A stretch of 64,000 nucleotides of DNA. Origin: Owenia fusiformis. Taxonomy: Eukaryota > Annelida > Polychaeta > Sabellida > Oweniidae. Below the pieces are notes generated by a model. That model saw nothing but the letters and a program-made list of their open reading frames with translations, did not search any database and was not told where the DNA came from. Made by a program: the position numbers and the translations under genes. Numbering within the stretch: position 1 is the stretch's first letter; the number at the start of each line of letters is the position of its first letter. Below are positions 16,301-58,585 of the stretch, in pieces. The DNA lies in the NCBI GenBank assembly GCA_903813345.2, contig CAIIXF020000003.1, positions 32,301,151-32,365,150 of the forward strand, given 5' to 3'.

Positions 16301-19300
16301 TTTTGACCTTGACAAGGTCATTGAAGGTCAAATGTCAAATCTTAAGTCAAATCTTAAGTCAGATTTGAATTTCTGAGAACACGTAGATGATTTTGAAAAA
16401 AAAATTTAGTCAATTCGAAGCAAGTTGAAAACAGACCTTTTTTTACCTTTTTTGACCTTGAGAAGGTCATTGAAGGTCAAATGTCAAATCTAAAGTCAGA
16501 TTTGAAGGTCAAATGTCAAATCTAAAGTCAGATTTGAATTTCTGAGAACATGTAGATGATTTTGAAAAAAAATTTAGTCAATGTGAAGCAAGTTGAAAAA
16601 AGACCTTTTTGACCTTGAGAAGGTCATTGAAGGTCAAATGTCAAATCTAAAGTCAGATTTGAACTTCTGAGAACATGTAGATGATTTAGAAAAAAATTGA
16701 AGTCAGTCTAAACAGTATTTGTTAAGTTATAGGAAGTTGTAAGAAATTGTTACAGACGCCAACCGCCGGACGCCAACCGCCAACCACCAACCGCCGGACG
16801 CCGTCGAAAAAAAAACGGAGACCATAACAATATGTCACCACTTTTGGTGGTGACATAAAAACAATGCTACCTTAACTGCCGTTTACCTTATTTGCAGCTG
16901 ATGCTACTTCCAGTCCTATATCCTGACCTGATGCACCTGCCCCTAGACATACAACATTGAGACCCTGACATGACTCCTTATGTCTGTAGTTATGGCTATG
17001 CAAAACTTTGCCCTTGAAGTCATCCATTCCCTTGATGTTTGGGATGATAGGGGTAGAGTAATGCCTGAAATGCACCATGGAATATTGCTGTATAGAGTTG
17101 GTAAAAATACTTGACTAGACACAGAGTATTGCTATACAAAGTTGGTAACAATATGTAACTAGACACAAAGAAGTATTAGCAATACAAAGTTGGTAACAAT
17201 ACTTGACTAGACACAAAGAGTATTGCTATACAAAGTTGGTAACAATACTTGACTAGACACAAAAAAGTATTGCCATACAAAGTTGGTAACAATACTTGAC
17301 TAGACACAAAGAAGTATTGCTATACAAAGTTGGTAACAATACTTGACTGAACACAAAGAAGTATTGCTATACAAAGTTGGTAACAATACTTGACTAGACA
17401 CGAAGAGGTATTGCTATACAAAGTTGATAACAATACTTGACTAGACACAAAGAAGTATTGCTTAACAAATTTGGTAACAATACTTGACTAGACACAAAGA
17501 AGTATTGCTAAACAAAGTTGGTAACAATACTTGACTAGACACAAAGTATTGCTAAACAAAGTTGGTAACAATACTTTACTAGACACAAAGAAGTATTGCT
17601 AAACAAAGTTGGTAACAATACTTGACTAGACACAAAGAAGTATTGCTATACAAAGCTGGTAACAATACTTTTCTAAACACCAAGGAGTATTGCTATAAAA
17701 AGTTGGTAACAAAACTTGACTAGACACAAAAAAGTATTGCTATACATAGTTGGTAACAATACTTGACTAGACACAAAGTATTGCTATACAATTTGGTAAC
17801 AATACTTGTCTTAACACCAAAGAAGTATTGCTATACAAAGCTGGTAACAATACTTGTCTAAACCAATGAGTATTGGTATCCAAGTTAGGCTCATCTAGGC
17901 TGATCTTAAGAATGCATATTTGAATTGAGAATCTCCCTCCACACCCATAATAACAACTTACCCATTGCATACCATCACAGCATCTGCAGTCTCCTTGGTA
18001 ACACCCATAATAACAACTTACCCATTGCATACCATCACAGCATCTGCAGTCTCCTTGGTAACACCCATAATAACAACTTACCCATTGCATACCATCACAG
18101 CATCTGCAGTCTCCTTGGTAACACCCATAATAACAACTTACCCATTGCATACCATCACAGCATCTGCAGTCTCCTTGGTAACACCCATAATAACAACTTA
18201 CCCATTGCATACCATCACAGCATCTGCAGTCTCCTTGGTAACACCCATAATAACAACTTACCCATTGCATACCATCACAGCATCTGCAGTCTCCTTGGTA
18301 ACACCCATAATAACAACTTACCCATTGCATACCATCACAGCATCTGCAGTCTCCTTGGTAACGCCTTGTTCATTGTCCTTTACAGTCACCTCCCATTGAA
18401 TATCATTCTCATCAGTTTTTATTGGATCAACATGTTCTACACTTGTGTTGAACTGAAAAATAATTGTAAACCTATCAGGGTTTTCATTAGCATTATAGCA
18501 GAAAATATAACAACAAAGAGGTGAAATTATCATTTTACGTGGAAATACATGTACAGTAGTTGCGCAATTCTCTGAAACAGCAAGATGAAGCAATTATCTT
18601 TTACATTGATTTTTTTGATTTTTCATCAGTACATTTCAAAAGTTAATAAAAAAACATGTACAGTATGTATATATACATTAGTGAGAGAGAAGTTAACACA
18701 AGATACCCTTAAAAAACATTGATCAACAGAAATAATTATTAGTGAAGCAATCATGGAGTCCGATTCTGAACTTTTCCGTATTGTAAATTCAATTGTTAAT
18801 TTTCGGTTTACAGACTGTACTTGTCCTATCGTAAATTATTTACAGCAAAAATTTATGGAAAAGTTCAGAATCAGAGTCCAGGTATTGTTTTATACCTTAA
18901 TGTATTTATAGAGGTCATTTTGTTGAGTGTAATCTTCTAGGTACTTCCTCACATCACTGTGGCGTACAAATGATGGTAAACTCTTGTCAAATGGAAAATC
19001 TGGAAAAGCCATCACTTCTTTGGGAAGGTTAGTCCTAAAACAAAGTAACAGATTTGTAGGCCTAAAACATATAAATAAAATTAGCGGCCCATCTTATTTA
19101 AGGTCCTACCTCTGAAAATGTAAAGTGGCAAAGTGGGAAAGAAAGAAGCTGAGATATGAAGCAAATCTAAAATGAGCACTTATTTATGGTGAAATTATTT
19201 CATATTTGGAGGGTTCTGTTTTTTGGGCCACCCTGTATGAGGAATACATTTCTGTGAATGAAAACATAACAGTCTTTAAGACCTTGTAATATTTCTATGC

Positions 19301-20617
19301 CGTTCATAAATGTATCCACTATTTGTAGAATTCTGATTAAGTCAGGTTTCCAAGCCATCAATAACAATCACCTCTAGAAATACTTAATTAGATAAAATCA
19401 ACCATCCTCTTTGGCTAATGGATTTACTAAGTATCAAGTATAATAGTTCTATGGTATAATTGGTTTTCAATAATTTAAGCCTTCACCTGATAAATTAACT
19501 GATTAGTTGAGATACATTTAAGTAAGATGTAAACAGCTTGTTTTCATCAACAGATCAAATTCACAATTCCATTTTCCTCATAAAATAGTATTATGTACAA
19601 AATAGAAAATGAAGTAACTTTGAACATCACATTTCTCGGAACTATTTAGTTGGAGTTAATATTTGAATGGCAAAAGTTGATGTTGAAGAAACTTGAAAAC
19701 AGTGACTTCTGATAATTTTAATGTTCTTATCAATTTACACCGTGTTTCTTGATAATTCTTGGCGGTTGATGTGTCTGAACTAAATACTTGTATTCTATTG
19801 ACTACATGTATGTGATATAAAGAAGTTATTCACCAGGAGGGATTTGATATGGGGAATATCACAAGGATGATATCCATATATGGATATCATCCAAGGGATA
19901 TTCCTCCCAACAGCTGAATAACGACCTTATACCATGGTCGAGAGCAATACAGATGTATGTACTTAAAATCCTCTGTTGAATGAGAGAAAAATTGTAAGAA
20001 TGACAATTTTTGAAAAAATGAAAATTCAATTGTGAAATACAACAGGACAAAATGTAAAAACATCAGTGTGATGTATCTTTGTATTGGCAAGATATCAATA
20101 AACATTTTTGAACATATGAATTTTTGTGAGCTAAATCTAAAATTACATAATAATTTTTATTCAACATTTTCTTTTTATTAAACATAACATCAGGACTGCC
20201 AACAATATTAAATCAACTTATAGCTTAATCAGTGTCAAACATTTTTTTCTTTCTGTTTATTTTTAACAATCATGATAACAAAAAGTTCCTTAAATGATGA
20301 CAATGGCAATGCATGAGCTAGATCAATCTCAATCTAGTCTGCCAGCTATAAAGTGACTGCTCCTCTTGGTCCTTATAACAATTAACAAACATATTCAGTA
20401 TTCAATGTGTAGTAAAATACCTGAGTTCTTTATACATGCTTGAGTGTATAGGGTTCCCCCTATCATCTTTATCTGTTTGTTCTGTGTACACCCACGTCCC
20501 TCCTACAACAGAGCTTTGTTCATATGCAACTGCTTGGAACAGATCTGGCCTCGCTGTCAGATGCCTAAGAGCACATAGCCCAGCTGCTCCAGCTCCTATC
20601 ACAATAACCCTTTTCAT
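13323..20617 (-). CDS. flavin-containing monooxygenase (FMO GS-OX-like)
   Basis: NADPH- and FAD-dependent monooxygenase that oxygenates soft nucleophiles (N or S) in xenobiotics and metabolites. Five exons read in phase: 20421-20617, 18896-19034, 18322-18452, 16887-17064 and 13323-13952, giving 424 residues, the size of the short GS-OX-like FMOs. The FAD Rossmann motif GAGAAG is at residues 8-13. The FMO signature FKGKVLHSHNY is at about 172-182, the NADPH motif GAGASG at 197-202 and the CTGY motif at 263-266. The C-terminus has no clear membrane anchor. All donors are GT and acceptors AG. The start chosen is the ATG directly before RVIVIGAGAAG; upstream in-frame ATGs belong to a tandem array. 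Three of its regions carry tandem arrays (exon 1 edge, intron 3, intron 4). Any 5' non-coding exon would lie above 21.8 kb. Confidence 0.93.
14555..14645 (-). repeat. dispersed repeat fragment
   Basis: In FMO intron 4. The minus strand shares 'aaaagtgaaccccc' and GCAAAAGCTGGCTA-like blocks with 33740-33835 on the plus strand. Class unknown. Confidence 0.4.
14740..14965. repeat. array of short palindromes (ACAGYRCTGT)
   Basis: About 16 short self-complementary motifs such as ACAGCGCTGT, AACAGTACTGT and ACAGTGCTG follow one another with irregular spacing. Both strands could form alternative hairpins. It lies in FMO intron 4. Confidence 0.7.
15020..16860. repeat. ~150-bp tandem array rich in AGGTCA half-sites, hairpin at its end
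   Basis: About 12 units of roughly 130-165 bp in FMO intron 4, each with ATTTGAATTTCTGAGAACA, CAATTTGAAGCAAGTTGAAA and a block of TGACCT and AGGTCA motifs. The right end has GCCAACCGCCGGACG repeats and then a perfect hairpin, ATGTCACCAC with its complement GTGGTGACAT, at 16832-16856. The left edge has a related ATGTCACCACC at about 15035. These edges suggest that the array was carried in by a non-autonomous mobile element with a tandem-repeat core (inference; Helitron-like or another class). Confidence 0.85.
17079..17882. repeat. ~47-bp minisatellite in FMO intron 3
   Basis: About 16-17 copies of a 47-48 bp unit containing AGTATTGCTATACAAAGTTG and GTAACAATACTTGACTAGAC. It begins about 15 bp from the exon 4 acceptor and runs to within about 60 bp of the 60-bp array, so intron 3 is almost wholly tandem repeat. 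Confidence 0.93.
17941..18360. repeat. 7 x 60-bp perfect array spanning the FMO exon 3 donor
   Basis: Seven identical 60-bp units. On the minus strand each carries the last ~38 bases of FMO exon 3 (encoding TKETADAVMVCNG) joined to its 5' splice site, AATGG then GTAAGTTG. The unit next to the exon body is the real exon end (18322). The other six lie downstream in intron 3. No base difference was seen between units. Confidence 0.97.
18754..18880. mobile_element. small MITE-like inverted repeat
   Basis: Ends match as inverted repeats of about 24 bp (TGGAGTCCGATTCTGAACTT at left; complement of TGGACTCTGATTCTGAACTT at right) around about 80 bp. It lies in FMO intron 2 and stops 16 bp from the exon 2 border. 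Confidence 0.6.
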
Positions 20618-21790
20618 TATCACTGAAATAACAATAACCCTTTTCATTATAACTGAAATAACAATAATCATTTTCATTATCACTAAAATAACAATAACCA
20701 GTTTCATTATCTTTGAAATCACAACAATCTTTTGCATTATATTATTTCTGAAATCAAAACAACTATTTTCATTATCTCTGAAATCACAGCAAAACTTTTC
20801 ATTATCTCCATGAAATCAAAGCAACCTTTTCATAATGGGTGAAATCACGACAATTTTTTTCACTATCACGGAAAACGCAACGAAATAACCCTTTTCATTA
20901 TCTCTGAAATCCCAACAATCATTTTCATAATCTCTGAAATCCCAACAATCATTTTCATTATCTCTGAAATCCCAACAATCATTTTCACTATCTCTGAAAT
21001 CCCAACAATCATTTTCATTATCTCTGAAATCCCAACAACCATTTCCATTACATGTATCTCTGAAATCAAAAGAACTGAAGTCATGACAATCCTTTTCATT
21101 ATTTCTGAAAAAAAGAAAAACCCTTTTCATTTTCTCTGATACTTTTTCTGAAATCAAAAAAACTATTTTCATTAACTCTGAAATCACAATAACCAGTTTC
21201 ATTATCTCTGAAATCACAATATTCATTTTCATTATCTCTTATATCACAGCAACTATTTTCATTGAATCTGAAATCACAACCAGTTTCATTATCTCTGAAA
21301 TTACAATATTCATTTTCATCATCTCTGAAATCACAATAACCAGTTTCATTATCTCTGAAATCACAATAAACCTATCAAAACAACCATTTTGATTATCTCT
21401 GAAATCACAACAATCATTTTCATTATCTCTGAAACCACAACAATCATTTTCATCATCACAACAAACCCATCGCAACAACCATTTTGACTATCCCTGAAAT
21501 CACAACCATTTTCATTACCTCTAAAATCACAACAATCATTTTCATTATCTCTGAAATCACAACAATCATTTTCATCATCTCTGAAATCACAACAATCATT
21601 TTCGTCAACTCTGAAATCACAACAAACCCATCAAAACAACCATTTTGACTATATCTCTGAAATCACAACCATTTTCATCATCTCTGAAATCACAACAAGC
21701 CAATCACAACAACCATTTTGACTATCTCTAAAATCAAAACAAACAACTCTTTACCTCTGAAATCACAACAACCTTTTTCATTTACTCCAA
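20600..21790. repeat. ~30-bp minisatellite seeded on the FMO start exon
   Basis: About 39 units of 30 bp. On the minus strand a typical unit reads GTGATTTCAG then AGATA, ATG and AAAATGATTG. The true start is the last such unit: TTATTTCAGTGATAATG followed by AAAAGGGTTATTGTGATAGG. Each unit thus repeats an acceptor-like TTTCAG, a start codon and the first codons of the FMO. The nearest three units stay in frame with the FMO start and would add MKRVIVISVI-type decapeptides if translation began upstream. Confidence 0.93.
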
Positions 21791-22416
21791 ATGGCTTGCT
21801 TGATGTAAAAAAGAAAATTTTTGGGGCACAACAATCCTACTTTTTAGTAGCTAGACTAGTAGCCTACATCTTGGATACACCCCTGGTGTACAGTGGTCAG
21901 TAGACTCAGTGAAACAAAGGATCATGGAAAAGCATACCATTTACTACGTACATGTATTGGTACACGTACACACACAGGTACAGTAGCAGTAAATAGGGCC
22001 TGGCCAACGAACTTGAAAATTAGAGAATTTCATTATCTTTCATGCAAAATCTGGACGAAATTTGGAAGTTTTGATTCACCGTATATATATTTACAGACAT
22101 ATTTCTTCTATTTCAAGACAATTTATCATAAAAGAGTAACTTTGGTCAACAAAAATCCATGGAAACTGATGAATAGTAAAATGTTACAAAATATTTTCCT
22201 TACCGGAAGTTTGATAGTTGCCGGATTACGTTTTCTAACTTAATATACGATGGCCCATAATAATCGATGTTCAGCAAAAGTCCCATGTAAAAATTGCATA
22301 TAGCACAAACAGTTTAATCATAAGCTTTCGAGCCAATTGTCATTTTAGTCAATTTTGTCAATTTAGTCATATAAATTGTCCACTGGAGTGTTGAACATCG
22401 TTTGTAGGCTAAAGAT

Positions 22417-24027: not shown

Positions 24028-24061
24028 ATGCGAATATGACGGTCGTTACCTTCGCTTGATA

Positions 24062-25201: not shown

Positions 25202-28200
25202 TCAGCAACATTTCTTTTTCTTCGTTGTTGCAGTTCCTTTGAGATTGATCCTGTCATTATTAACTGAGCTTTGTAGAAAATCCTCATCCGGTAATTTTCG
25301 ACCTGTAAATAATAATTTTTTTTCAATCTATAACACAAACTACAGAGGGCGAGAAAATTAAAAGTTTGTGAAATTATCAAATGCAGCCATAATTTATCCT
25401 ATTTGGTGAAAACTGCTTATGGTGTGACCTAACATATCATAATATTAGTATTTGCAGGAATATAAATTTCAGTATACGAGAATAATAAGAATAAATTGAA
25501 AATAAGAAACTAGAGATATATGAGAACTTTGTAATCAACCCTCGTATGTTACATGTTATTATCTGCTTGCATTAATGGAGTGGAAGATAGTCATAACTTA
25601 CATATAGCCTCAAACATCTCGCTGACATTTGTAGCATTTTTGGCACTCGTCTCTACAAATATTGCATTTGTTTGTTCAGCATACGCCAGAGCATCTACAA
25701 TGAGACATCCTTGTGTTACATCGGTCATTGACATACGTTTTGAAACAACATCTCAATCTGAGGGTCAAACAAATACTGACACAATTTGACAGAAGCATAG
25801 GAGAATATATGAAAATAACAATGCAATATGGTTTAGCTATAAATCTGATGCTCGGATTTTGTCATTTTAAGTCTGTGTTTTATTCAATCAAGATCTACTT
25901 GGGTATAGGCATAAGGACAAACTCTCGGCACCAAGTCGACAGAAAATGTCAGTAATGTCGATGTACCTTTATATTGCACTTCCCGTAGGTCAGCGAGATC
26001 ACATTTATTGCCAGCAATTGCTATCACAATCTCTTGTGGACCATGTCTCTGAAGCTCCTTGATCCAATCTTTTAGTACACCAAAACTTGACTGAAATTTG
26101 GAAAACGTTTTCAGGTGACAAGTAACGGAGACACATGTGCCTGATGCAAAATGGAAGTCAGAACGATTTTAGATACATGTAGAATTCTCCAAATTTATTT
26201 GAACATAACAACTTTCAAAATTATTGAAAAACAACCTCCAAGTCATTCAATTAAGTCAGAGCTGTTTGACACTACACACTGTAATTTGAATTGGATCATT
26301 GTTCATTTGTGTTCTTCTAACCCGTTGTTCTATTTAACTTATATGGGTTTGCAACTTAGGTCATGGTATTTACACTTTCCCCACTCTATAAATACCTTAC
26401 CTCATTGGTGACATCGTATACTATCACAGCAGCAGCAGCTCCTCTATAATACATAGGTGCTAAGGCCCGATACTGAAACAGAAAGTCCTCTATAATACAT
26501 AGGTGCTAAGGCCCGATACTGAAACAGAAAGTCCTCTATAATACATAGGTGCTAAGGCCCGATACTGAAACAGAAAGTCCTCTATAATACATAGGTGCTA
26601 AGGCACGGTACTAAAACAGAAAGTCTTCTATAATACATAGGTGCTAAGGCATGATACTAAAACAGAAAGTCATCTATAATACATAGGTGCTAAGGCCCGA
26701 TACTGAAACAGAAAGTCCTCTATAATACATAGGTGCTAAGGCACGGTACTAAAACAGAAAGTCTTCTATAATACATAGGTGCTAAGGCACGATACTGAAA
26801 CAGAAAGTCATCTATAATACATAGGTGCTAAGGCACGATACTGAAACAGAAAGTCCTCTATAATACATAGGTGCTAAGGCACGATACTGAAACAGAAAGT
26901 CTTCAATAATACATAGGTGCTAAGGCACGATACTGAAACAGAAAGTCCTCTATAATACATAGGTGCTAAGGCACGGTACTAAAACAGAAAGTCTTCTATA
27001 ATACATAGGTGCTAAGGCACGATACTGAAACAGAAAGTCTTCAATAATACATAGGTGCTAAGGCACGATACTGAAACAGAAAGTCTTCAATAATACATAG
27101 GTGCTAAGGCACGATACTGAAACAGAAAGACTTCTATAATACATAGGTGCTAAGGCACGATACTGAAACAGAAAGTCTTCTATAATACTTAGGTGCTAAG
27201 GCACGATACTGAAACAAGAAAGTATTCTATAATACTTAGGTGCTAAGGCACGATACTGAAACAAGAAAGTATTCTATAATACTTAGGTGCTAAGGCACGA
27301 TACTGAAACAAGAAAGTATTCTATAATACTTAGGTGCTAAGGCACGATACTGAAACAAGAAAGTATTCTATAATACTTAGGTGCTAAGGCACGATACTGA
27401 AACAGAAAGTCTTCTATAATACATAGGTGCTAAGGCACGATACTGAAACAAGAAAGTATTCTATAATACATAGGTGCTAAGGCACGATACTGAAACAAGA
27501 AAGTATTCTATAATACTTAGGTGCTAAGGCACGATACTGAAACAAGAAAGTATTCTATAATACATAGGTGCTAAGGCACGATACTGAAACAAGAAAGTAT
27601 TCTATAATACTTAGGTGCTAAGGCACGATACTGAAACAAGAAAGTATTCTATAATACTTAGGTGCTAAGGCACGATACTGAAACAAGAAAGTATTCTATA
27701 ATACTTAGGTGCTAAGGCACGATACTGAAACAAGAAAGTATTCTATAATACTTAGGTGCTAAGGCACGATACTGAAACAAGAAAGTATTCTATAATACTT
27801 AGGTGCTAAGGCACGATACTGAAACAAGAAAGTATTCTATAATACTTAGGTGCTAAGGCACGATACTGAAACAAGAAAGTATTCTATAATACTTAGGTGC
27901 TAAGGCACGATACTGAAACAAGAAAGTATTTTATAATACTTAGGTGCTAAGGCACGATACTGAAACAGAAAGTCTTCTATAATACATAGGTGCTAAGGCA
28001 CGATACTGAAACAAGAAAGTATTCTATAATACATAGGTGCTAAGGCACGATACTGAAACAAGAAAGTATTCTATAATACTTAGGTGCTAAGGCACGATAC
28101 TGAAACAGAAAGTCTTCTATAATACATAGGTGCTAAGGCACGATACTGAAACAAGAAAGTATTCTATAATACTTAGGTGCTAAGGCACGATACTGAAACA

Positions 28201-31200
28201 AGAAAGTATTCTATAATACTTAGGTGCTAAGGCACGATACTGAAACAAGAAAGTATTCTATAATACTTAGGTGCTAAGGCACGATACTGAAACAGAAAGT
28301 CTTCTATAATACATAGGTGCTAAGGCACGATACTGAAACAAGAAAGTATTCTATAATACTTAGGTGCTAAGGCACGATACTGAAACAGAAAGACTTCTAT
28401 AATACTTAGGTGCTAAGGCACGATACTGAAACAAGAAAGTATTCTATAATACATAAGTGCTAAGGCACGATACTGAAACAGAAAGTCTTCTATAATACAT
28501 AGGTACTAAGGCACGATGCTGAAACAAGAAAGTCCTCTATAATAGACGGTTGCATATGCAGTATGCTCGTTTAGGTGCGGAAACTCACTAGCGATAATTT
28601 TTATTATTACCAAAGAAAAAAGTCCTCTGAAAATGAAGGAGCTAAGGCACAATGCTGAAACAGAAATTCCTTCATGCATAGCGTGGCCCAGAAAAATTTA
28701 TATTTTTATTTTATTTAGTGATAATATCTGTAATAATGAATATATTTAAGAATACTATTGATGATAATGCAGGGATCATTAATTACAGAACTTACTTTTT
28801 CTTGACCAGCAGTATCCCAAATTTGATATTTGTAAGTTTTTTCATCCACAGTTAATGTTTTACTCATGAACGAGGCCCTGGAATAAAGCAAACACAACGA
28901 ATTGAATCTTGAAGATAAGGTAAACATAGAGAAGAGCACAAATAGGCTTGCTATTAAAGTCAAAAAGAAATTAATAGAGAGATATCAAGTATATTGGAAG
29001 AATCTGATAAGTGGGAATGGGGGGAAACTTAGATTATTTAAACAACTAAAATCGCACTTTGGGTTTGAACACTACCTTTCAGAAACGAGACTTTCAAACG
29101 CTAAACATTTAACTAGATTACGTATAAGCGCCCACAATCTAGAGAGAGGCCGATATACAAAACCAATTACTGATCTTAATAGTCGATTTTGTAAAATATG
29201 TAAGGACTCGGTTATAGAAGATGAAACACACTTTTTATTCAAATGTAAAAAATTGGAGTTTATCAGAAAATCCCATATTGAAAAACTTGAAAACCTGTGT
29301 AGTAATTTTAAAAACATGAATGATCACCAAAAGACAATTTTTCTATTGACGAGTGAGGGGATCATATTAAAAGAAGCTGCTGACATGATAAAGTATCTAA
29401 TGATTGGTAGAGACAGGATTCTTATATCAAAGTAACATTTTATATATGTCATTTGAAGAATGTAATCCTATTTTCTTTACTTTATTGCTATATTTACTGT
29501 TATTAAAAATTGTATATCGGATGTACGTTTGGCCCTAAAAGGGCATCAGTACTAATAAAATCCTATATCTATAACACTGTATTTACTTGTATCAATTAAT
29601 AAGTATACATACATGTATCATAAGTTCATGTCCACGTTTTACAATAATAACTATTGACAAAACAAATATTATATTATGTCAAAATGTGAATTCTTCCATA
29701 TTTGTTATATTTTTGTTATATTCTTCATTTTTCAAGAAGATAAATTATAATCCTTCCAGAAAGTTTTTCTAGCTCTTTGTGCGTGTACCAGAAAATCTAG
29801 CAGCAAAATTATGTTATACATATTATATCGATGGAAATATTTGGTTTAAAAAGTGAAAAATGTAGTCACAAGATGTGAGTCTACATGAATTGTGAAGCAT
29901 TTGTTTTCAACACAAATTCTTTCGTTTTAATTATACGTATTGAGAGTATTGAAAATTGAAATGTCATTATTGTGGTCGTGTTGACATGCAATATATCATG
30001 GCTGCAATTCTCTATTAGGTTTTAACTCATCAAATCGGTAACCCTTTGCAAGAGAGTGCATCAATTTGAACTGTTTTTTTCTTATGTTGCCCTTTGTACG
30101 AATATCTGCTTATAGAAATAGAAAGCTTACCCTATTGTGCTTTCCAATGCTGGCTTGAATGTGTCGTGGACAAATCGCTGGACAATGCTAGATTTTCCTA
30201 CGCCACTTTCCTATCAAAAATTATTCAAATATTAAACTTTTCCCCACAAATATATACAGGGTGGGCCAAAAAACACCACTTTTTTCAAAATGCTATAACT
30301 TTTTTAATATTTGATACAAAATCATAATATAGATACTAAATGAAACTTGAGGTTGTTATCTAGCCATGGATCATGAAATATGCACTTTTACTTGAACAAA
30401 ATATGTCACGAGTGTCTCACTTAAACATGTGGTGTGCCATAAGAAATAAGCATAATTTGCAAAATGTTCCTGAACTGATACGGCCTGATGACCTCCAAGC
30501 TAATAGCCCTGATACAAACCCCAGTGAGGGTATGGAAAAGTCTCCAGGAGTTTGTATGAAATCTAAAAAATTGCTCAACTAAAGCTGGCAATTAAGACAG
30601 GATGAAAAAAACTAAGCAAACATTTTATTGATACTGCTATATCAGCAAGGCGACTAAAACTAAAATCTATCATCAAATAGGGTGGCGGACCAATTGAACT
30701 CCTCTTTTAGATCAACTATAATCCAAGTTGGAGGACTTGTTACATTACATTATTACTAAGAACCCCTGGCACTACATAACTGCAAAATTTGGGGTATGGA
30801 GGTTGGAAAATAAAAAAGTTATAGTGTCTTAAAAAGAGAAGCATTTTTGGCCCACCCTGTACATCAGCTTTGATATGCTATTTCACTATTGATATCAAAG
30901 CATTGACATTAGACCTAAAAAACTTTGAATTATATACTATATTCTAGTATATTATTTGAAAATCAAATTTTCATAATGTGAAAACTCTTTAAATTAAATG
31001 GTACTTTAACTAAGGTGTCAATGACACGTAAACATGGAATATACACTCTTCAACTGATTACATGTTAGGTACATAAAGGACTTTGAACATTATTTATTAT
31101 TTATTTATGAGACTGCAACCGTAGTATTCCTTCTTTTATGATTTTAACTTCTTCTATTGAATAACATATACTCCCGCACAATAATTTCGGGAGGAGGGGG

Positions 31201-31688
31201 GGGGGGTGGTACCGATTGACTCCCCACCCGGATGCGAAAAAGTTGCTCCTTCAGAGAATATTTTGGTTTAACTTTAGAAATTTTGGACCATTTGATTCAA
31301 AAAGTTCAGTCCCATTCTCCCCATACTCGCACTTTTTTAAAAATGACCCGAGAATTCCAATTTTCATATTTGCAGTTAAGATAAGTGTGTAAAGATGTAG
31401 ATCATATGCAATGAGTTTAGTTATGCATTCTTGAAAATGATATGTGATTTCAAAGAAGACTGCATAAAAATTCCAAACGTACACATTCATCTTAAGATAG
31501 TAAGGAATCGATTACTCTTTGAACATTGAGGCGAGGAAGGTTCGTCCAGACCACCAGAACCCCAGTATTTACGGTACGAGGAGAATCCGATTGAAAAAGC
31601 AATGATGGGCGTTAATCATGACTGAATCAAATAGAGGAAGTACTATACCTACCCCTAAGAGGCACACTTTCACTTCCCTCAATGCCAT
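25202..31688 (-). CDS. Rab22/Rab31-type small GTPase
   Basis: Membrane-bound GTPase of the Rab5 subgroup, expected on early endosomes. Seven exons read in phase: 31653-31688, 30131-30210, 28796-28877, 26401-26472, 25967-26090, 25602-25694 and 25202-25302, giving 195 residues against 194 for vertebrate Rab22A. The first exon encodes [12 protein letters not shown]. The P-loop GESGVGKS is at 12-19, the switch region STIGASF around 36-42, WDTAGQE at 59-65, [10 protein letters not shown] just after, NKCD at 118-121 and ETSAK at 146-150. The protein ends KKKKCC, a double-cysteine geranylgeranylation tail. Switch Gln64 is present, so GTP hydrolysis should be intact. Donors are GTAGGT, GTAAGC, GTAAGT, GTAAGG, GTACAT and GTAAGT. 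Intron 3 is mostly a tandem array of its own 3' splice site, intron 2 holds a LINE fragment and intron 1 a mariner copy. Rab22A versus Rab31 cannot be separated by eye. Confidence 0.95.
26440..28546. repeat. ~45-copy array spanning the Rab exon 4 acceptor
   Basis: Unit of 46-47 bp. On the minus strand it reads CTTTCTGTTTCAG then TATCGTGCCTTAGCACC and TATGTATTATAGA: the 3' splice site of exon 4 and codons for [10 protein letters not shown]. The unit at 26440-26472 is the real exon start. The next units upstream are identical to it (CGG for Arg); farther units mostly carry the silent CGT and a longer TTTCTTGTTTCAG. A worn extra unit lies at about 28621-28670. Confidence 0.97.
28887..29580 (+). 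mobile_element. 5'-truncated LINE, 3' end with zinc-knuckle domain
   Basis: An open frame to 29435 (about 180 codons) encodes the C-terminal part of a non-LTR retrotransposon protein: [14 protein letters not shown], then [17 protein letters not shown], the usual CxxC...HxxxxC knuckle after the reverse transcriptase. It is followed by a ~145-bp 3' region with GGCCCTAAAAGGGCATCAGT and TAATAAAATCC. It lies antisense in Rab intron 2 and begins only about 10 bp beyond the exon 3 acceptor, leaving a short pyrimidine-rich tract. Confidence 0.85.
30255..30861 (+). mobile_element. mariner-like element with transposase C-terminal remnant
   Basis: Starts TACAGGGTGGGCCAAAAAAC and ends TTTTTGGCCCACCCTGTA. 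The plus strand encodes [20 protein letters not shown] then [10 protein letters not shown], the mariner SPDxNP motif. It lies in Rab intron 1 about 40 bp from the exon 2 acceptor. Confidence 0.85.
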
Positions 31689-32640: not shown

Positions 32641-32643
32641 TAT

Positions 32644-32822
32644 GGCCTGCCTTGTTCATCAGTGTGGTCTGCCTTGTTCATCAGTGTGGTCTGCCTTGTT
32701 CACCAGTGTGGTCTGCCTTGTTCATCAGTGTGGTCTGCCTTGTTCACCAGTGTGGTCTGCCTTGTTCATCAGTGTTGTCTGCCTTGTTCATCATTGTGGT
32801 CTGCCTTGTTCATCAGTGTGTA
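32644..32822. repeat. 22-bp minisatellite
   Basis: About eight copies of GTCTGCCTTGTTCATCAGTG plus two bases, with CATC/CACC variation, ending about 250 bp before the rolling-stone-like start codon. It stays open in all three plus frames because the unit is stop-free; coding is not supported. Confidence 0.92.
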
Positions 32823-35480: not shown

Positions 35481-36311
35481 CACAGGCTAGTATCGAAATA
35501 TTTGTCCGCTGTGACGGAGCATGCTATTTTTCATAAAAACACTAAGAATAATTCACGATTTATTTTTTAACTCATATGTTTCGTTATACCATACAAAATT
35601 ACCTACTCCATGCAATGGATATATCATTTGCGGGTAACTTTCACTCCTGTTTGAAGTCCAATTACGCTGGGAAGAAAAGGTATTGAAAATGGCGCCGGAG
35701 TATCATACTTCAAAATGTACCATTTCTTGTTTAACTTTCTAATGGCACGATATAGTGACACGATAATATTTACACATGGTTTCAGCATAACTTTGAAGGT
35801 ATAAATGAGATGTTGATGTATTTGGTCTTTTTAATTCTTTTATAAAAAATAATGTTTAATTTTTTTGTCCGCTGTGACGGAGCAGTTGCAAATGTGAACT
35901 GTGAAAATGCTCCGTCACAGCGGACAAAAAATATTAATATTATTTTTTATAAAAACATTAAAAAGACCCAATGCATTAATATCTCATTAATACATTCAGA
36001 CTTATGGTGAAAACATATGTTAATATTATCGTGTCACTATATCATGCCATTAAAAAGTTAAAAAAGAAATGGTACATTTTAGAGTTTGATACTCTGGCGC
36101 CGTTTTCAATAGATTTTACTCCTAGCGTTATTGGACTTCAAACAGAAGTGAAGGTTACACGCAAATGATATATCCATTGCATGGAGTAAGTAATTATCTT
36201 TGATATAACGAAACATATGAGTTAAAAAATAAATCGTGAAGCATTCTTAGTGTTTTTATGAAAAATAGCATGCTCCGTCACAGCGGACAAATCTTTCGAT
36301 ACCAGCCTGTG
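35481..36311. mobile_element. foldback element, CACAGGCT family, copy 1
   Basis: Near-palindromic, 831 bp, arms of about 400 bp. Starts CACAGGCTAGTATCG and ends CGATACCAGCCTGTG. The centre has TTTTGTCCGCTGTGACGGAG and its inverse about 30 bp apart, and the same GTCCGCTGTGACGGAGCA motif lies near each outer end. Target duplication GTAAT at 35476-35480 and 36312-36316. The duplicated left GTAAT contains the rolling-stone-like stop codon. An AATAAA lies near 36227. No coding frame. Confidence 0.93.
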
Positions 36312-47537: not shown

Positions 47538-48368
47538 CACAGGCTGGTATCGAAAGATTTGTCCGCTGTGACGGAGCATGCTATTTTTCATAAAAACACT
47601 AAGAATGCTTCACGATTTATTTTTTAACTCATATGTTTCGTTATATCAAAGATAATTACTTACTCCATGCAATGGATATATCATTTGTGTGTAACCTTCA
47701 CTTCTGTTTGAAGTCCAATAACGCTAGGAGTAAAATCTATTGAAAACGGCGCCAGAGTATCAAACTCTAAAATGTACCATTTCTTTTTTAACTTTTTAAT
47801 AGCATGATATAGTGACACGATAATATTAACATATGTTTTCAGCATAACTCTGAATTTATTAATGAGATATTAATGCATTGGGTCTTTTTAATTTTTTTAT
47901 AAAAAATAAAATTAATATTTTTTGTCCGCTGTGACGGAGCATTTTCACAGTTAACATTTGCAACTGCTCCGTCACAGCGGACAAAAAAATTAAGCATTAT
48001 TTTTTATAAAAGAATTAAAAATATCAAATACATCAACATCTCATTTATACCTTCATAGTTATGCTGAAACCATGTGTAAATATTATCGTGTCACTATATC
48101 GTGCCATTAGAAAGTTAAACAAGAAATGGTACATTTTGAAGTATGATACTCCGGCGCCATTTTCAATAGCTTTTCTTCCCAGCGTAATTGGACTTCAAAC
48201 AGAAGTGAAAGTTACCCGTAAATGATATATCCATTGCATGGAGTAAGTAATTTTGTATGGTATAACGAAACATATGAGTTAAAAAATAAATCGTGAAGTA
48301 TTCTTAGTGTTTTTATGAAAAATAGTATGCTCCGTCACAGCGGACAGATATTTCGATACCAGCCTGTG
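47538..48368. mobile_element. foldback element, CACAGGCT family, copy 2
   Basis: 831 bp, same length as the copy at 35481 and inverted relative to it. Starts CACAGGCTGGTATCG and ends CGATACCAGCCTGTG. Target duplication CATAT at 47533-47537 and 48369-48373. Arms of about 400 bp with the GTCCGCTGTGACGGAGCA motif near the ends and at the centre. Confidence 0.93.
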
Positions 48369-50391: not shown

Positions 50392-51239
50392 CACCCTATG
50401 CAGACAGAGCCTGTGGGAAATATTGGGTGCGGAGCAAATGAGCGGAGGGTGCGGAGCTAACGGTTATTTTTGAATTTAAATTTGGGATATTTCTGAAACT
50501 AAGCCGTTTTGGGACTTCAAATATACCAAGATATGTGTATTTGACACCAAATATCAATACAATTGTGAAAATAGTAGCGCAATTCATTCTATAGCGACGC
50601 AGTGTGCCTTAAACCTTTCCCAGACCTATATATTTTGAAATTATCCTTTTAATACTGAGTCCCCAGCATTCATAAAAAATGGTGTTCAAGGTGCACTATC
50701 TATACAAATTATTTTTGCATCTTGGAAGCCAGGCAGTATCTGTGTGATTTTATAAAAATTCGGAAATTTTTCAGATATGAGCCCCCTCTAAATATTGGGT
50801 GCGGAGCAGCTCCATAAACGTAGCTCCGCACCCAATATTTAGAGGGGCTCATATCTGAAGAACATTTCCGAATTTTTATAAAATCACACAGATACTGCCT
50901 GGCTTCCAAGATGCAAAAATAATTTGCATGGGTAGTGTATCTTGAACACCATTTTTTATGAATGCTGGGGACGCAGTATTAAAAGGATAGTCTCAAAATA
51001 TATAGGTCTGGGAAATGTTTAAGGCATACTGCGTCGCTATAAAATGAATTGCACTACTATTTTCACAATTTTATTCATATTTGGTGTCAAATACACATAT
51101 CTTGGTATATTTGAAGTCCCAAAACGGCTTAGTTTCAGAAATATCCCAATTTTAAATTCAAAAATGACCGTTAGCTCCGCACCCTCCGCTCATTTGCGCC
51201 GCACCCAATATTTCCCACAGGCTCTGTCTGCATAGGGTG
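50392..51239. mobile_element. foldback element, CACCCTATG family
   Basis: 848 bp, arms of about 400 bp. Starts CACCCTATGCAGACAGAGCC and ends with its inverse. Target duplication ATATT at 50387-50391 and 51240-51244. A TTGGGTGCGGAGC motif lies near each end and at the centre, where its two copies flank a short loop at about 50815. No coding frame. Confidence 0.92.
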
Positions 51240-51418
51240 ATATTATACGACACGTGATTACTCGTCTTAAGGGGCCAATAGCTGTTGTTCTTATCCTTAA
51301 ATATCCTTCCAATATCTATTGATTCATCATAATATGTAACTTACACAATTAATAGACGTGGATAAAAACTTTATTTTTCTGAAAATACCATATATGTTTG
51401 ACAAAACGTCTTTACGTA

Positions 51419-51602: not shown

Positions 51603-52059
51603 AATAAGGAATACAATCACCACTATTTACACATTTTCTATTATGACATAAACAATTATTCCAAGCTTGGATGATTACAGAAAAGAAAATTTATCTCCAT
51701 GTCTATTGATTTTGCAAGCTACGTATGATTATGAATTATTAAAATCTAAGTTTTTTTTATTTTGATGAGAATTGCAGCTATAAGCCACATAAAGGCAATA
51801 ACTGTGGCTGTTTATCGTTTTCCTTCAGTCTTCACGAAATACTTTGTTTGTTTACACGACTCCTAATCATAATTGCACAATTCAACGCCTGGAATGAAAT
51901 TTGGAATTAATTATTTAATCAAAAAGTGAATTTTGGAAACCAATATGTATTACAATTTTGTTGATGAATTAAAAGGGTCCAATAGCTTAAATGAGTGTGA
52001 AATTGAAACACTTGTTGTTTAGATATTTATAAGTCTATGGGTTTAAAGTTCTTTCTTCG

Positions 52060-52720
52060 AAACATAATTAGTTAAACGATTGAGAATTTAAAGCCTGAAA
52101 TAATGAATGAGAATCGTTGTCTATCACAAAAGACATTTGATCGAGAGGTATCACTCTAAAACGTAATGATATTACCAAACACGTCTCTGTTGCATGAAAT
52201 ATAACCGGCAGACCTTCTACATTACACGAAGCGTGACTTCTGTTGAACAAAAACCATGATAAACAAGTTATTTTACCAGAAGCATCAAAGAAAGACCTAC
52301 AAGAATCTATGTTTCGAATAAGATGCATGTTATATCAAGGTTTAACTTATTTTATCAATGGTCACTCATGTCTAATTCCAAATAGCTGATATGATCTGTG
52401 TCAAAGGATGCCACGATTGAAAAAACAACTGTTGTGAAGTTAATGACTGGTCAGTTGTAAGGTCTAAACGGTCACAAAAAGTGGGATAGAGCAAAAGAAA
52501 ACGGTCGATTGTGTGATGTCTGCAACTTAAATAAAATAGAATCAATCGAACATTTTCTTTGTCAATGCGAGATGTACGATCAAGAAAGGCTAGCACTAAA
52601 CGAAATCTATGTATACAACGATACAACTAGTGTTGAAGATCTGTCTGTCTTATTTATGTGTTTATTCACAATTAATGTACTATTGTAACTCTCTTATATA
52701 CTTCAGGTAAATATAGAATA
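52060..52720 (+). mobile_element. LINE 3'-end fragment
   Basis: At about 52474-52600 the plus strand encodes HKKWDRAKENGRLCDVCNLN then KIESIEHFLCQCEMY, the CxxC...HxxxxC knuckle of LINE proteins. It is followed by a short tail with AATACAATACAATC near 52720. The upstream 400 bp probably belongs to the same element but is interrupted in frame. Confidence 0.55.
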
Positions 52721-52889
52721 CAATACAATCAAACACTACTCTTGTGTGGAGAATTACTTAACTCTCTAGTACTTGAATCAGTAGAGACATTCCTCTTTTA
52801 TATGATGCATTGTCTATCTCTCTTGTACATGAACATTACAAAACACTCATTTTTGTATGTGTTACCCAACTCTCTAGTTATCGAATATA

Positions 52890-53230
52890 GAATTTCTAGG
52901 AATTAAGTCTCTAGGGATGGACGACCCATGAAATATCTGGGGATGGAGTGACTTGGGGTGATAGATCTTAGGGATGGAGGATCTAGTGGGGAAGTATGTA
53001 TGAGGGAAGTATCTACGAGGGAAGATGTCTATGGGTGAACGATCTGGGGATCAAAGATTTAAAGGTGAAATATTTGAGGATGAAGTCTCTAGGGGTGTAC
53101 GATCTAGGGGTGAAATGGGATGGGGTAGTTTGGGGTGAAGGACCTAGGGATGGCATGTCTTGTGCCGAAATATTAAGGGATAAAAGGTCTTGGGAAAATA
53201 CACTGGGGATGATATGCCTGAAGAGTGACC
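52890..53230. repeat. degenerate G/A-rich ~20-bp repeats
   Basis: Loose repetition of GATCTAGGGGTGAA-like and GGGATGGAG-like motifs, purine-rich on the plus strand. It begins about 100 bp beyond the stop of the PPP1R3 gene, so it may be part of its 3' untranslated region. Confidence 0.5.
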
Positions 53231-53334
53231 CGTCCAGAAATCACAAGGAAGATATCGAAAGACCATTTGACATCAGTTTCACAGTTAACAAGAATATAGT
53301 ATACATACCTATTTACAAGCCATGATGCATGGCA

Positions 53335-54627
53335 TCACACAAAATGCATCCAACTTGAATCTGACTCCACTGTGGGTGAAGCTTTTGCAAAACACGTGAA
53401 CCCATAATTACTGTCGTCATTGTTGTCCCAGAAGGCTTGGCCACTTGGAAGGCGAAAACACAGGGCCACCTCCATCCTATGCCCGACGTTGAACTCTGGG
53501 GGAACACTGATTGTAAATGAGAATCTATCTGTGCTTCCGTCACACGAATCTTGGACATATGTACAAGCAGCTTCCAAAAAGGAGTTCCAGTTATCAAAAG
53601 TGTATCTTACACGTACTGTTTTATCAAAGTTTATGTTAGAAACCCGTACCGTCCCCATGACGGTCATACCTGAGATTAAGGCATTTTCTAAGCACACCTT
53701 TTTCTCGTGGACTCTTTTGATAAAGTCAGGCCTTGACCCTGGTTGTTCAAACATGGGGGATAGTATTTTAGATCCTTGTGTCTTTTGTTCTTCGTCTAAT
53801 GTATCTTTAAGATCTTTGATTGCTGAGATGGGTATTAAAGGGGGCGCTTCCATGTTTAATATGTGTCTGACCGATTCCAGGTCAAGGCCTAGTGCATCCG
53901 CGAAGCGCACGACCTTTTTCCGTCCGGGGGTCCCCGGTGGAGTTTTTGAAGTTTTAAGAGATGTACTCCTTCTCAGTTCTTGTTTCTCGAAATTAAACTC
54001 GCGGTCTTCAAAAAGCATAGGTGACTGTGACCTGTGAGCAAACTTGAAAGCTGGCATTTTAGTGGCATCAGTCACCGGCCGGTTGTCCACACGAATCATT
54101 GGGATAGTGTTGTCTTCGTCTTTTAAATGATTAACGAATTCAGAAACATCATCATTCTTGAGCCCAGTATTCGAAAGTTCTTTGGTTATTAAGTCCAAAT
54201 CGTCATTTAAGTGGCTGAAGTCAAGTTCAGTATCAGCGTCCTCTGAAACAAAAGATTCAAGGTCATCAGAGCAGACGCTTAAAGATCTTCCTGGGGAGCA
54301 GACGTCCGAATCAACATCAGTTATTGTTCTATCTGAATCCGAGTACATATCAGAATCGTCCGAGTAGAATCTTGGTGACGTAACACCCTCAGGTAACTGT
54401 GATTCTCCACTGAAATCGTTATTGCCCTTTAGAATGCCCTCTTCAGTCGTAGGGGTCAAAATGGATTCCATATTCCGTCGGCGGCCTGATCTATACTTCC
54501 GTGTTTTTAGTTTGCATATTCGTTCAGTGTCATTGAAAATCCAGCCATGATGTTCTTCGTGATAATCAGAATAGCTGAGGTTCCTATGAAGACATCTCAG
54601 CACTTGATTTACTACAGGATCCTGCAT
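53335..54627 (-). CDS. protein phosphatase 1 glycogen-targeting subunit (PPP1R3 type)
   Basis: Adaptor that tethers PP1 catalytic subunit to glycogen and steers dephosphorylation of glycogen synthase and phosphorylase. A single exon encodes 430 residues from the ATG at 54627. The N-terminal half is acidic and Ser/Asp-rich. The PP1-docking RVxF motif is VVRFADALGLDL at 239-250, in the sequence context usual for this family. A CBM21 carbohydrate-binding domain occupies about 300-415: GTVRVSNINFDKTVRVRYTF early, and WDNNDDSNYGF at 400-410 as the conserved glycogen-binding strand. The protein ends after MHFV. The intronless layout is shared with several vertebrate PPP1R3 genes. Which vertebrate paralogue is closest (B, C, D or G) cannot be judged by eye. 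An upstream non-coding exon is possible. Confidence 0.93.
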   Translation of the reverse strand: MQDPVVNQVLRCLHRNLSYSDYHEEHHGWIFNDTERICKLKTRKYRSGRRRNMESILTPTTEEGILKGNNDFSGESQLPEGVTSPRFYSDDSDMYSDSDRTITDVDSDVCSPGRSLSVCSDDLESFVSEDADTELDFSHLNDDLDLITKELSNTGLKNDDVSEFVNHLKDEDNTIPMIRVDNRPVTDATKMPAFKFAHRSQSPMLFEDREFNFEKQELRRSTSLKTSKTPPGTPGRKKVVRFADALGLDLESVRHILNMEAPPLIPISAIKDLKDTLDEEQKTQGSKILSPMFEQPGSRPDFIKRVHEKKVCLENALISGMTVMGTVRVSNINFDKTVRVRYTFDNWNSFLEAACTYVQDSCDGSTDRFSFTISVPPEFNVGHRMEVALCFRLPSGQAFWDNNDDSNYGFTCFAKASPTVESDSSWMHFV

Positions 54628-57600
54628 CTATCCATCTGTAATCTCCACATTAGACTCTACTAAAATCCATATCACAACATCTAAATCCAGCACAACTCAT
54701 TCTGTTTATATTCACAAAAATCAGGCATAATGAATGTTCTCGATATTTTGACATTGGAAAAAACAAATGTTACATTAGCATAAAGGGTGCACGTATCCAA
54801 GGTATGATCTAAATGCTCAACTCATATGCCAAACCATCGATACCATTACAATGTTTGTAAAAGATAATTATACACAGCAACACCTCAATGCAATTTAAGG
54901 TCATGTCGACTGTATAGAGTGTTGCTCTTTATGCACTGTGACTGATTGATTCAACAGATTAACATTGTTTTTTAATAACAACCATGATTTCGAACGACTC
55001 GTTACTGTTAGTATTTATGCTGTACCAGATTGCTCCCGATAGCTCCGCCTTTTTCACCATATTAGGGAGATCATTCAGTATTCGGCTCATAATAAAGTAC
55101 ACACCATGTGCTTGAAGGTTAACTGAAGGACGAATTGCCTTTTAAATAATGCTAATCAATACCACTGCTTGCCAGTTTGAGCTAGTTAGCAGCGCAATCT
55201 ATCTGTTTACATGTGAGTGAAATCTCTATTCATTATTGAGTTTTGTGCTGAATTGTAAATAGAGTGATCGATAAAATGGCGGGGTCGACTGAGGACATAA
55301 TACATAAGATAGGTCGATATTAGGCGATACATGCAACTGTTTTACGAAAAAGAAATAATATAGAAGAAGTTCAATACTTATATGTGAATGTCCAATCAGT
55401 GATGCCTAACTGTCTACCAATGTCCAGTTCAGCAATTATTCGGTTCCCGTTGATAGCTGTCAAATTGATGATTAGTGTTATACTATTTGCCAGCTCAAGT
55501 CTGCACTCTTGCTGATATCTTAGTTTCCAGAATTTGACAAGTTCTAGAACAGCAGCATTTTGATTTGACATCTCCAGTCACTAGCTAGTACTACGGCCAA
55601 GGCCATTGTGTCCAAAACACCTAGATTCAATTTGACTTAAGATTTGACTTTAGATTCTTGTAGGGGACCCCAAGGCATGTAAAAAAAATTGTGAACCCTT
55701 GCAAAGCAGGCTCAAAAGTGCTGAGTCAGCAAATGTTATCATTTTCGAGTCGGAGTTTGACCATATGCTTGAAACTATTTAATCTCTCATTTAATCAGTC
55801 ATTTAAAAAACAGTAAGGGCCTATGGTGTATAAAACTTGATTAAAAACTTCACTGATGATGTTAGCAAATATCCATTGCATAAGTTTCAATAAAAAGTAC
55901 ATGCATCTATTTTTCTGATTTTTCTCTTTGCCTTCCCCTAAAAATTCAAGAAAGGGGGCGTGGCACCTTACACTTCAGTTGTTGAACTTATTGCTAGGGT
56001 CAAATAGATTATAGCAAAATGTGTTATTCTAAATAAATCTTAACACTATATGTGACATCATGATATGCTAAACATATTCATTATCTACCATTTTATATTT
56101 TTTACAGCTTATCATTGCCATACCCCATAAAACCGTTTAGGGTATGTGTGGTCAGCAATAGGAAATACATGTATGTGTACTTATAACATTTTTCAAAATT
56201 GTATTTCAGATGCCATTTTATCCTAATGTTGTTCATGTAGTTATGGTATGTTAAGAATGAATTATGATGATAATATGTTATATTACACTCCCCATCATAA
56301 GTTTTGTAACTGGAAGTCCCCCTTTGAATCACTTATCAAAGCTTGTCATGCTGTTTGGCAATTTTAAACAAGTCATCAAGTTTTTGAAATAAAGCAATAG
56401 GGAACAAAATCAAGGTTCAAACATTGACAGACCTTGATATGTTATCATAAGAAAACTTGCAGTTGCTTTGTATTATATGTGTCATAAATTGTTTAGTTGT
56501 AGAACATAATAACATGTGTCTCTTATGTTTATGTAAAAATTGCCTCTAGTTGAGCAATGTTCAAGGAGGGAAATAATCTGAAAGTGCATAAAACCTGAAG
56601 CCAAAAGAAATATTAGTGCTTTACATCCTCTCCAAGGTTTTGTCGCGGTCATTTTGATCCCAAGTTAGCTGACACATCCCATGATCAAAAGTTCCACGAT
56701 GCCCAATGGAAAGAATGAACAGGTTCATTCTCAATGGGGCTTCGTGGGCTTCAATGTCGTATTGGTGTATGTTAGGCTTTAGCGAACTAACTTCCTTTGT
56801 TTACATTCATCAAAACGTTAAAACAGTTGTCAAAACTTTGTAAGAGCGTGATTTTTTGGACCGAATTCACTTGTCTGCTATGGATATTTTAGTTTTTTAG
56901 CCACCATTTAGCTTCTGGAGGCCGGCGCCACTGGGGGCCCTGTTTAACTTCTGGGGGCCACTAGGATCCATGGTATAGCTTCTTGGGGCATTTTTTATTT
57001 GAACCTAGAAAATTAATGTATTTTGCCAGACCATAATCATCTTTGGTGGCTGTCGAGATGGGGTAAAATTAAGTTATAATTTTTTTAACAAATTCATATG
57101 ACTATTTATCTCTAAAGCAGCACTTTCTTTTACCCAATGGGCATAACCTTTTCAAGAAGTGTTATTTTGGACCACCTTTTTAAAGAAAGTGAAATGTAAA
57201 AACCTGATGATGTTACCATAGCAACTGAAATGTTAGATGTATTACATAAACCAAATGATGAATTATTATCTTTACTTCTAATCATGTATATAATAGATAA
57301 GTATATACTTCAGATGCTTTAAGAATCAAGAATATGAAGAAATTATGAAAATCTGTGTTCTGTTACTGTTGCTATAGCAACGGATTAAGATTTTTTCTTG
57401 ATCTTTGTCACACGTGTCAAGCATCATACTAAAACTAATTCCCCAAAATTTCAAGTTAATATATTTATTAGTGTCTGAGATATGAGGGTGCCTTATAGTA
57501 CCCCCTGTATATTTTATCAGGAGTAAAGTAACGTAAAATGATTGGAGACGAAATAAACGACACTGATGTCAGTTATTTTAGCAAAACTTATTTAAAAATG
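54628..57600. other. intergenic; dispersed repeat and X-box-like motifs
   Basis: Upstream of the PPP1R3 gene. A copy of the dispersed repeat lies at about 56285-56460 ('cataagttttgtaactggaagt'). X-box-like palindromes GTTACCATAGCAAC (57212-57225) and GTTGCTATAGCAAC (57368-57381) lie near the 3' side of DHRS4. A minus-strand AATAAA near 57465 could serve as the DHRS4 poly(A) signal. No exon seen. Confidence 0.4.
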
Positions 57601-57619
57601 GATTGGATAAATGTTGTTA

Positions 57620-58585
57620 CAGAATAGAAGTCACACTCGAACTACCGTTCGTTGTTATAGTTTCTTCAGTTATGTATACGCGCCATCACTAAACACGAGA
57701 AATGTTAACGTCTTGACTGTGAACCATCATTCATCATCAGCATAGTTTTTCCAGTTATATATGAAGCATCACTGGACACTAGAAATGTTAAAGTCTCGAC
57801 TGTGAACCACCATTCATCACTATAGTTTCTCCAGTTATGTATGAAGCATCACTGGACACTAGAAATGTTAACGTCTTGACTGTGAACCACCATTCATCAC
57901 TATAGTTTCTCCAGTTATGTACGAGGCATCACTGGACACTAGAAATGTTAAAGTCTTGACTGTGAACCACCATTCATCACTATAGTTTCTCCAGTTATGT
58001 ATGAAGCATCACTGGACACTAGAAATGTTAACGTCTTGACTGTGAACCACCATTCATCACTATAGTTTCTCCAGTTATGTACGAGGCATCACTGGACACT
58101 AGAAATGTTAAAGTCTTGACTGTGAACCACCATTCATCACTATAGTTTCTCCAGTTATGTACGAGGCATCACTGGACACTAGAAATGTTAAAGTCTTGAC
58201 TGTGAACCACCATTCATCACTATAGTTTCTCCAGTTATGTATGAAGCATCACTGGACACTAGAAATGTTAAAGTCTTGACTGTGAACCACCATTCATCAC
58301 TATAGTTTCTCCAGTTATGTATGAAGCATCACTGGACACTAGAAATGTTAACGTCTTGACTGTGAACCACCATTCATCACTATAGTTTCTCCAGTTATGT
58401 ACGAGGCATCACTGGACACTAGAAATGTTAAAGTCTTGACTGTGAACCACCATTCATCACTATAGTTTCTCCAGTTATGTATGAAGCATCACTGGACACT
58501 AGAAATGTTAAAGTCTTGACTGTGAACCACCATTCATCACTATAGTTTCTCCAGTTATGTATGAGGCATCACTGGACACTAGGAA
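57620..58585. repeat. ~12 x 80-bp array spanning the DHRS4 coding end
   Basis: Unit of 80 bp. On the minus strand each copy reads CAGTGATGCCTCATACATAA, then the codons for [18 protein letters not shown] and CATTTCTAGTGTC. The true 3' end of the coding sequence is the unit nearest the gene (58508-58585). Several differences between units are silent (GCC/GCT, TCA/TCG), and some units change the last codon CTT to CGT. Confidence 0.96.

Follow-up and report, generated by a model that had tools for sequence, protein, structure and literature searches.

Genes and tandem arrays in the window

The sequence analysed is a single 64,000-nt stretch of the Owenia fusiformis genome (contig CAIIXF020000003.1), here called the window. 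Within it, four minisatellites overlap the edges of coding exons in three genes: FMO, a Rab22/31-like gene (Rab) and a DHRS4-like gene (DHRS4). Exons were modelled from a GT-AG reading of both strands. The six gene models (FMO, Rab, DHRS4, rolling-stone-like, a CBM21 protein and a cysteine-rich protein) together hold 5,590 bp of coding sequence in 29 exons, an alternative one among them. The three array-bearing genes and their arrays are as follows.

13323-20617, minus strand: FMO gene, 5 coding exons (20421-20617, 18896-19034, 18322-18452, 16887-17064, 13323-13952)
17083-17883, minus strand: 47-bp FMO array, 17.3 copies, in the same intron as the 60-bp array
17941-18362, minus strand: 60-bp FMO array, 7.0 copies, 100% matches
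20598-21781, minus strand: 30-bp FMO array family, main row 20598-21625 with 33.3 copies
25202-31688, minus strand: Rab22/31-like gene, 7 coding exons (31653-31688, 30131-30210, 28796-28877, 26401-26472, 25967-26090, 25602-25694, 25202-25302)
26443-28544, minus strand: 46/47-bp Rab array, 45.2 copies, 96% matches
57656-58587, minus strand: 80-bp DHRS4 array, 11.6 copies, 95% matches
58508-63583, minus strand: DHRS4-like gene, 8 coding exons (63513-63583, 62751-62928, 62420-62521, 62073-62143, 61913-61964, 59220-59354, 58907-58962, 58508-58622)
61601-61652, minus strand: alternative fifth exon of the DHRS4-like gene

In these three models the introns are GT-AG and the reading frames are intact. 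The best matches to solved relatives are 5nmw for FMO (5e-81), Rab22A for Rab (2e-70) and the solved DHRS4 3o4r for DHRS4 (5e-91), where the alignment runs to the final residue. The junctions carried by the arrays are free of gaps in the FMO, Rab and DHRS4 alignments, for example where VMVCNG meets HYSTP and at the SRL-stop end of DHRS4.

Tandem repeats, including those listed above, were called with Tandem Repeats Finder (TRF). The 52 rows that it returned in the window were merged into nine large arrays, with at least 5 copies, and ten small ones. At a score of 30 there are 131 rows, and the additional weak rows were kept out of the counts. The TTTGCACC region at 8732-11657 was entered as two large arrays. 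An earlier note on this DNA had described four arrays, each on a coding edge, with unrelated units. TRF finds all four, the in-frame models place them on those edges, and comparison of the units supports their being unrelated to one another at real exon edges.

Structure of the edge arrays

The four edge arrays share an anatomy. Each extends outward from its exon, and the functional unit is always the gene-side one. The array spans contain 41 (60-bp FMO), 20 (30-bp FMO), 30 (Rab) and 80 (DHRS4) coding bases. The nearest decoy unit is 100% identical to the functional edge in the 60-bp FMO array, 100% over 33 nt in Rab, 97.5% in DHRS4 and 93% in the 30-bp FMO array. The likeness claimed in the earlier note for three of the four gene-side units is thus present in all four, at 93-100%. 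None of the nine large arrays lies inside coding sequence. One small TRF row does lie inside a coding exon, in the cysteine-rich gene (15 bp x 1.9, 5991-6019).

The 60-bp FMO unit consists of the last 39 nt of exon 3, the donor GTAAGT and 15 nt of intron. Its seven copies do not differ at any position, and the functional copy is the high-coordinate unit. GTAAGT is kept in all six decoy donors, each of which leads to a stop after residue 156. The 60-bp and 47-bp arrays together make up 94% of one 1,257-bp FMO intron. The 47-bp array, overlooked in the earlier note, does not overlap exon 4; its gene-side end stops 18 nt short of the acceptor. A placement of this array across the acceptor was rejected, since both the reading frame and the alignment of FMO show the true acceptor to lie 18 nt beyond it. 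Arrays account for 54% of the next FMO intron, with none at its edges. A large FMO intron array (15091-16538; 148-bp unit, 419-bp higher-order period) lies within the gene but off its edges, with 348 bp between it and the nearest exon.

In the 30-bp FMO array, the start codon of FMO lies in the gene-side unit, which covers 20 nt at the beginning of the coding sequence. The array is diverged: of 30 delimited units, the 22 with a length of 26-36 nt are 67-93% identical to the functional one. As a unit length of 30 is divisible by three, the array offers five upstream ATGs in frame, up to an upstream stop at 20818.

The Rab unit joins the intron end, with TTT[CT]AG, to the first 30-33 nt of exon 4, and the array fills 89% of its intron. 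There are 45 regular acceptors, 44 decoys and the functional one of exon 4, and one more degenerate copy lies at 28660. From 28524 to the real site, AG is kept in 44/44 decoys, delimited with a pattern that requires AG, and the exact TTTCAG in 40. The acceptor spacing is an unbroken 46 or 47 nt, so no unit was skipped by this pattern. Splicing any of the 44 decoys to the real donor and the later exons would bring in a stop before residue 194. Identity of the units to the exon drops with distance (rho -0.64; units not independent). Unit changes are synonymous in 2/9 cases (neutral 0.25).

The DHRS4 unit is the last 80 nt of the coding sequence, stop codon included. The functional copy is at 58508-58587, and the other units lie downstream of the stop. 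TAA is retained in 11/11 delimited units, the functional one counted, and one further degenerate unit lies beyond them. Of five distinct unit changes, four leave the amino acid unchanged in the coding frame (neutral 0.27, P 0.02); 9 of the 10 delimited decoys entered this test, and an 83-nt unit was dropped. The synonymous bias suggests that DHRS4 units passed through, or were copied from, the functional place. Such exchange with the functional copy does not appear to be general, because only 2/9 of the Rab changes are synonymous.

Placement of arrays relative to exon edges

The placement of four of four arrays on edges, as the earlier note counted it, becomes four of nine when all large arrays are considered, or five of nine when the 47-bp FMO array, within 20 bp of an edge, is included. 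Exons are also more than the few percent of these genes that had been assumed (FMO 17%, Rab 9%, DHRS4 16% of the gene span). In the array-collapsed window, coding sequence makes up 10.2% and gene spans 36.7%, so exons amount to approximately 28% of collapsed gene spans.

In the seed null, each array was collapsed to one unit and dropped at random. All P values are uncorrected for how the window and the finding were chosen, and one gene holds two of the four edge arrays. Over the whole window, 0.60 of the nine large arrays are expected on edges, against 4 observed (P 0.0016). The value is 0.0020 when seeds inside exons are excluded and 0.0071 for all 19 arrays. Within gene spans, 1.89 are expected for the nine large arrays (P 0.093) and 2.65 for all 19 (P 0.26). 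Without DHRS4 the values are 0.011 (window) and 0.21 (gene spans), and for five of nine within 20 bp they are 0.0009 and 0.057, respectively. Limiting the test to the six large arrays that lie in genes or touch them gives 0.00023 (window) and 0.019 (gene spans), a choice that is partly circular. The statistics are weaker than the earlier note claimed, with P running from 0.0016 (whole window, nine arrays) to 0.26 (gene spans, all 19) according to the null. When full-length arrays are placed at random, 3.4 edge overlaps are expected (P 0.46); this was rejected as the main null, since arrays that swallow whole exons score.

Further or decayed cases were sought as copies of each edge within 2.5 kb, compared ungapped. 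Of the 57 edges, 52 are clear of arrays by a margin of 20 bp, and none of these reaches 24/36 matches, so there is no sign of additional or decayed cases by this search. Among 3,000 control positions, 3.3% reach 24/36, which corresponds to approximately 1.7 expected among 52 edges; 0/52 against 1.7 is no clear difference. Whether repeats are drawn to exon edges is beyond what a single window can show, and preferential seeding is unproven.

Comparison with known systems

In amphioxus, tandem repeats that lie over an exon-intron boundary have been named mirages. In the excerpts available, they are described for Adh3, the globins and PGBD5, and TnC is cited as well (PMC3087553, PMC3902484), Adh3 and TnC both by way of citing papers. 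The globin gene BflGb6 has units of 150-160 bp in 6 or 3 copies, depending on the haplotype, and BflGb9 also carries a mirage (PMC3087553, PMC3902484). The PGBD5 units are 60 and 108 bp (PMC3902484). Splicing is reported to be regular for lancelet Adh3 and globins and is inferred to be so for PGBD5 (PMC3087553, PMC3902484).

The FMO exon-3 donor array and the Rab exon-4 acceptor array match the definition of a mirage, as both repeats span an exon-intron boundary. As in the excerpted accounts of amphioxus, duplication can affect either the 5' or the 3' end of an exon. The splice signals are copied and the genes intact, with AG in 44/44 Rab decoys, GTAAGT in 6/6 FMO decoys and complete open reading frames. 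The likeness to amphioxus mirages noted earlier is supported. By definition, the DHRS4 stop-codon array falls outside the mirages; the FMO start-codon array, where 5 nt separate TTTCAG from the ATG, could by its sequence fall on either side. The present arrays differ from amphioxus mirages in having up to 45 copies and in that two of the four carry a start or stop codon.

Base composition, taken by itself, makes a lancelet source improbable without excluding it. The GC content of the window, which may be atypical of the genome, is 35.6%, with 3/32 two-kb windows at 40% or more and coding sequence at 44.8%. Cephalochordate genomes have 40-42% GC, and lancelet coding sequence 53%, according to the excerpt available (PMC9956151).

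Other systems are similar in part. Beside the real exons, the introns of amphioxus VCBP3 contain copies of exons, whole or in part, that have canonical splice sites (PMC2632668). They resemble the decoys described here and are not described in the available excerpt as tandem minisatellites. In potato RdRp, a tandem duplication across an intron-exon boundary carries splice signals (PMC4974935). Unlike the potato case as excerpted, existing introns here are filled by arrays, the coding sequence is unchanged and no new intron is seen. Intron gain by tandem duplication was not found: beyond the existing edge, the three gene models require neither sequence encoded by the arrays nor an additional intron, and their alignments to relatives, in which intron positions fall outside the comparison, have no gap there. 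Ordinary intronic minisatellites have the same unit size, homogeneity and tandem structure. Unlike them, the present units are coding-derived over 30/47 (Rab), 20/30 (30-bp FMO), 41/60 (60-bp FMO) and 80/80 (DHRS4) nucleotides. Earthworm metallothionein was rejected as a match; its first-intron arrays and its fourth-exon duplications, absent from the final transcript, are not described in the available excerpt as exon-edge minisatellites (PMC12783039). Among the literature matches listed, as excerpted, no mirage-type array outside lancelets was recognised, the potato case being described as a duplication rather than an array. The mirage kind may extend to an animal lineage other than the lancelets. 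The interpretation given in the earlier note is partly supported.

Origin and maintenance of the arrays

The arrays are probably mirage-type minisatellites of which selection has kept only outward growth. A tandem duplication of a short segment straddling the edge of a coding exon would come first, and slippage or unequal exchange would then raise the copy number. Because a change in copy number within a coding exon alters the protein, only outward growth would survive; the outward pattern itself is observed. The unit continuous with the remainder of the exon would serve as the functional edge, and the others would be decoys, either intronic or outside the coding sequence. Since the splice dinucleotides are preserved in the decoys and the hexamer around them is mostly that of the real site, position most likely determines which site is used, as judged from the sequence. 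The real site may pair with its partner splice site across the exon (exon definition), and nonsense-mediated decay could remove splicing errors as a backstop. When the splice joins are predicted, all 44 Rab decoys and all six FMO decoy donors give premature stops. Intron growth would be a by-product, as in the FMO and Rab introns that are 94% and 89% array.

Several observations weigh against this interpretation. The DHRS4 array copies a stop codon, where there is no splice boundary, and the 30-bp FMO array copies a start codon, which may not be a splice boundary either. There is no synonymous bias in Rab to indicate exchange with the functional copy. Distance gradients are not significant in the 30-bp FMO (P 0.21), 47-bp FMO (P 0.42) and DHRS4 arrays (P 0.065, rho -0.60). 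The 60-bp FMO array is without variation, and an error in copy number is conceivable. Such an error, with copy numbers invented or inflated during assembly, is highly improbable as an explanation of the arrays as a whole. Copy numbers of the lancelet PGBD5 repeats do vary by assembly (2 vs 7 and 3 vs 6, in the excerpts available), but the Rab and DHRS4 arrays contain patterned unit variants.

Three further explanations concern why arrays lie at edges. It is possible, though doubtful, that exon edges are true hot spots where breaks linked to transcription or splicing start duplications more often. Four of nine large arrays on edges and a fifth 18 nt away are consistent with this, as are the window-wide nulls (P 0.0016; 0.0009 within 20 bp); the sequence within 30 bp of an edge totals 3,429 bp, whereas the other four large arrays share approximately 47 kb of the remaining non-coding DNA. 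The gene-span nulls argue the other way (P 0.093 for nine arrays, 0.26 for 19, 0.057 within 20 bp, 0.21 without DHRS4), as do the absence of added cases at the 52 edges outside arrays and the selection of the finding by the reader who spotted it. The earlier proposal that duplication starts at exon junctions is accordingly not established; the excess at edges depends on the null, and two of the cases are at start or stop codons. The R-loops suggested as its cause were not adopted, because coding-strand G-skew is extreme at the two array-bearing edges of FMO (first and third of 57 edges) but ordinary at the other two of the four, in Rab (rank 28) and DHRS4 (rank 37). Alternatively, seeding could be random and arrays could persist longer at edges, where purifying selection holds one unit intact and the array stays recognisable and expandable. 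This is somewhat unlikely. The Rab units closest to the exon are most like it, and DHRS4 changes are mostly synonymous, yet the FMO intron array at 15091-16538 has similar homogeneity off the edges, the Rab changes lack the synonymous bias and the gradients of the other three arrays are not significant. Chance combined with attention, in a repeat-rich gene region where some arrays happen upon exons, is unlikely. Full-length random placement and the gene-span seed nulls for nine and 19 arrays are compatible with it, but the former scores the swallowing of whole exons, absent in all these arrays. The repeated units themselves hold the exon edge, and the window-wide null stays at P 0.0016, or 0.0071 with small arrays.

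It is quite unlikely that exon edges, start and stop edges included, are general birth hot spots of minisatellites well outside the lancelets and a major route of intron and untranslated-region growth. Should arrays of the present kind prove general, introns would have a way to lengthen that spares the coding sequence, and splice-site choice would have a natural test, with 45 near-identical acceptors in a row in Rab and the reading frame kept only by the last. Whether transcription units seed tandem duplications at exon junctions could then also be answered by a simple genome-wide count.

Other features of the window

In DHRS4, there are two 52-nt copies of exon 5 (61601-61652 and 61913-61964) in the same phase. 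Either copy alone leaves an open full-length protein, and they are candidate mutually exclusive exons at the catalytic serine. Inside a Rab intron, a plus-strand open frame at 28887-29435 seems to resemble the tail of a retroelement reverse transcriptase, although it has no Pfam match.

Other repeats lie in or near the remaining genes. The cysteine-rich protein, modelled without its 5' end, has no Pfam match. One of its introns contains an exact 45-bp duplication (7460-7553, 2.1 copies) 77 bp from the next exon. A 22-bp array of 8.1 copies (32643-32820) lies upstream of the rolling-stone-like coding sequence, 250 bp from its start codon. The region at 8732-11657 consists of approximately 2.9 kb of nested TTTGCACCC/GGTGCAA arrays, in which no gene was recognised. 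Within it, on the minus strand, 10177-10932 is a 251-aa open frame, which exists because the unit of 69 bp keeps the frame.

No Rfam match reaches the gathering threshold in the window. Four similar open frames (NIIVSLY...KKWYIL...) at 35624-35830, 35980-36168, 47681-47869 and 48019-48225 form two divergent pairs, a pattern that a dispersed inverted element would leave. Another such pair of frames, with a different sequence, is at 50396-50608 and 51023-51235. With the arrays removed, TACATGTA occurs 14 times in the window, 7.9-fold over the dinucleotide expectation, and CACCCTGT occurs nine times, 19.8-fold over it. The latter presumably fits the terminal repeats of dispersed transposons.
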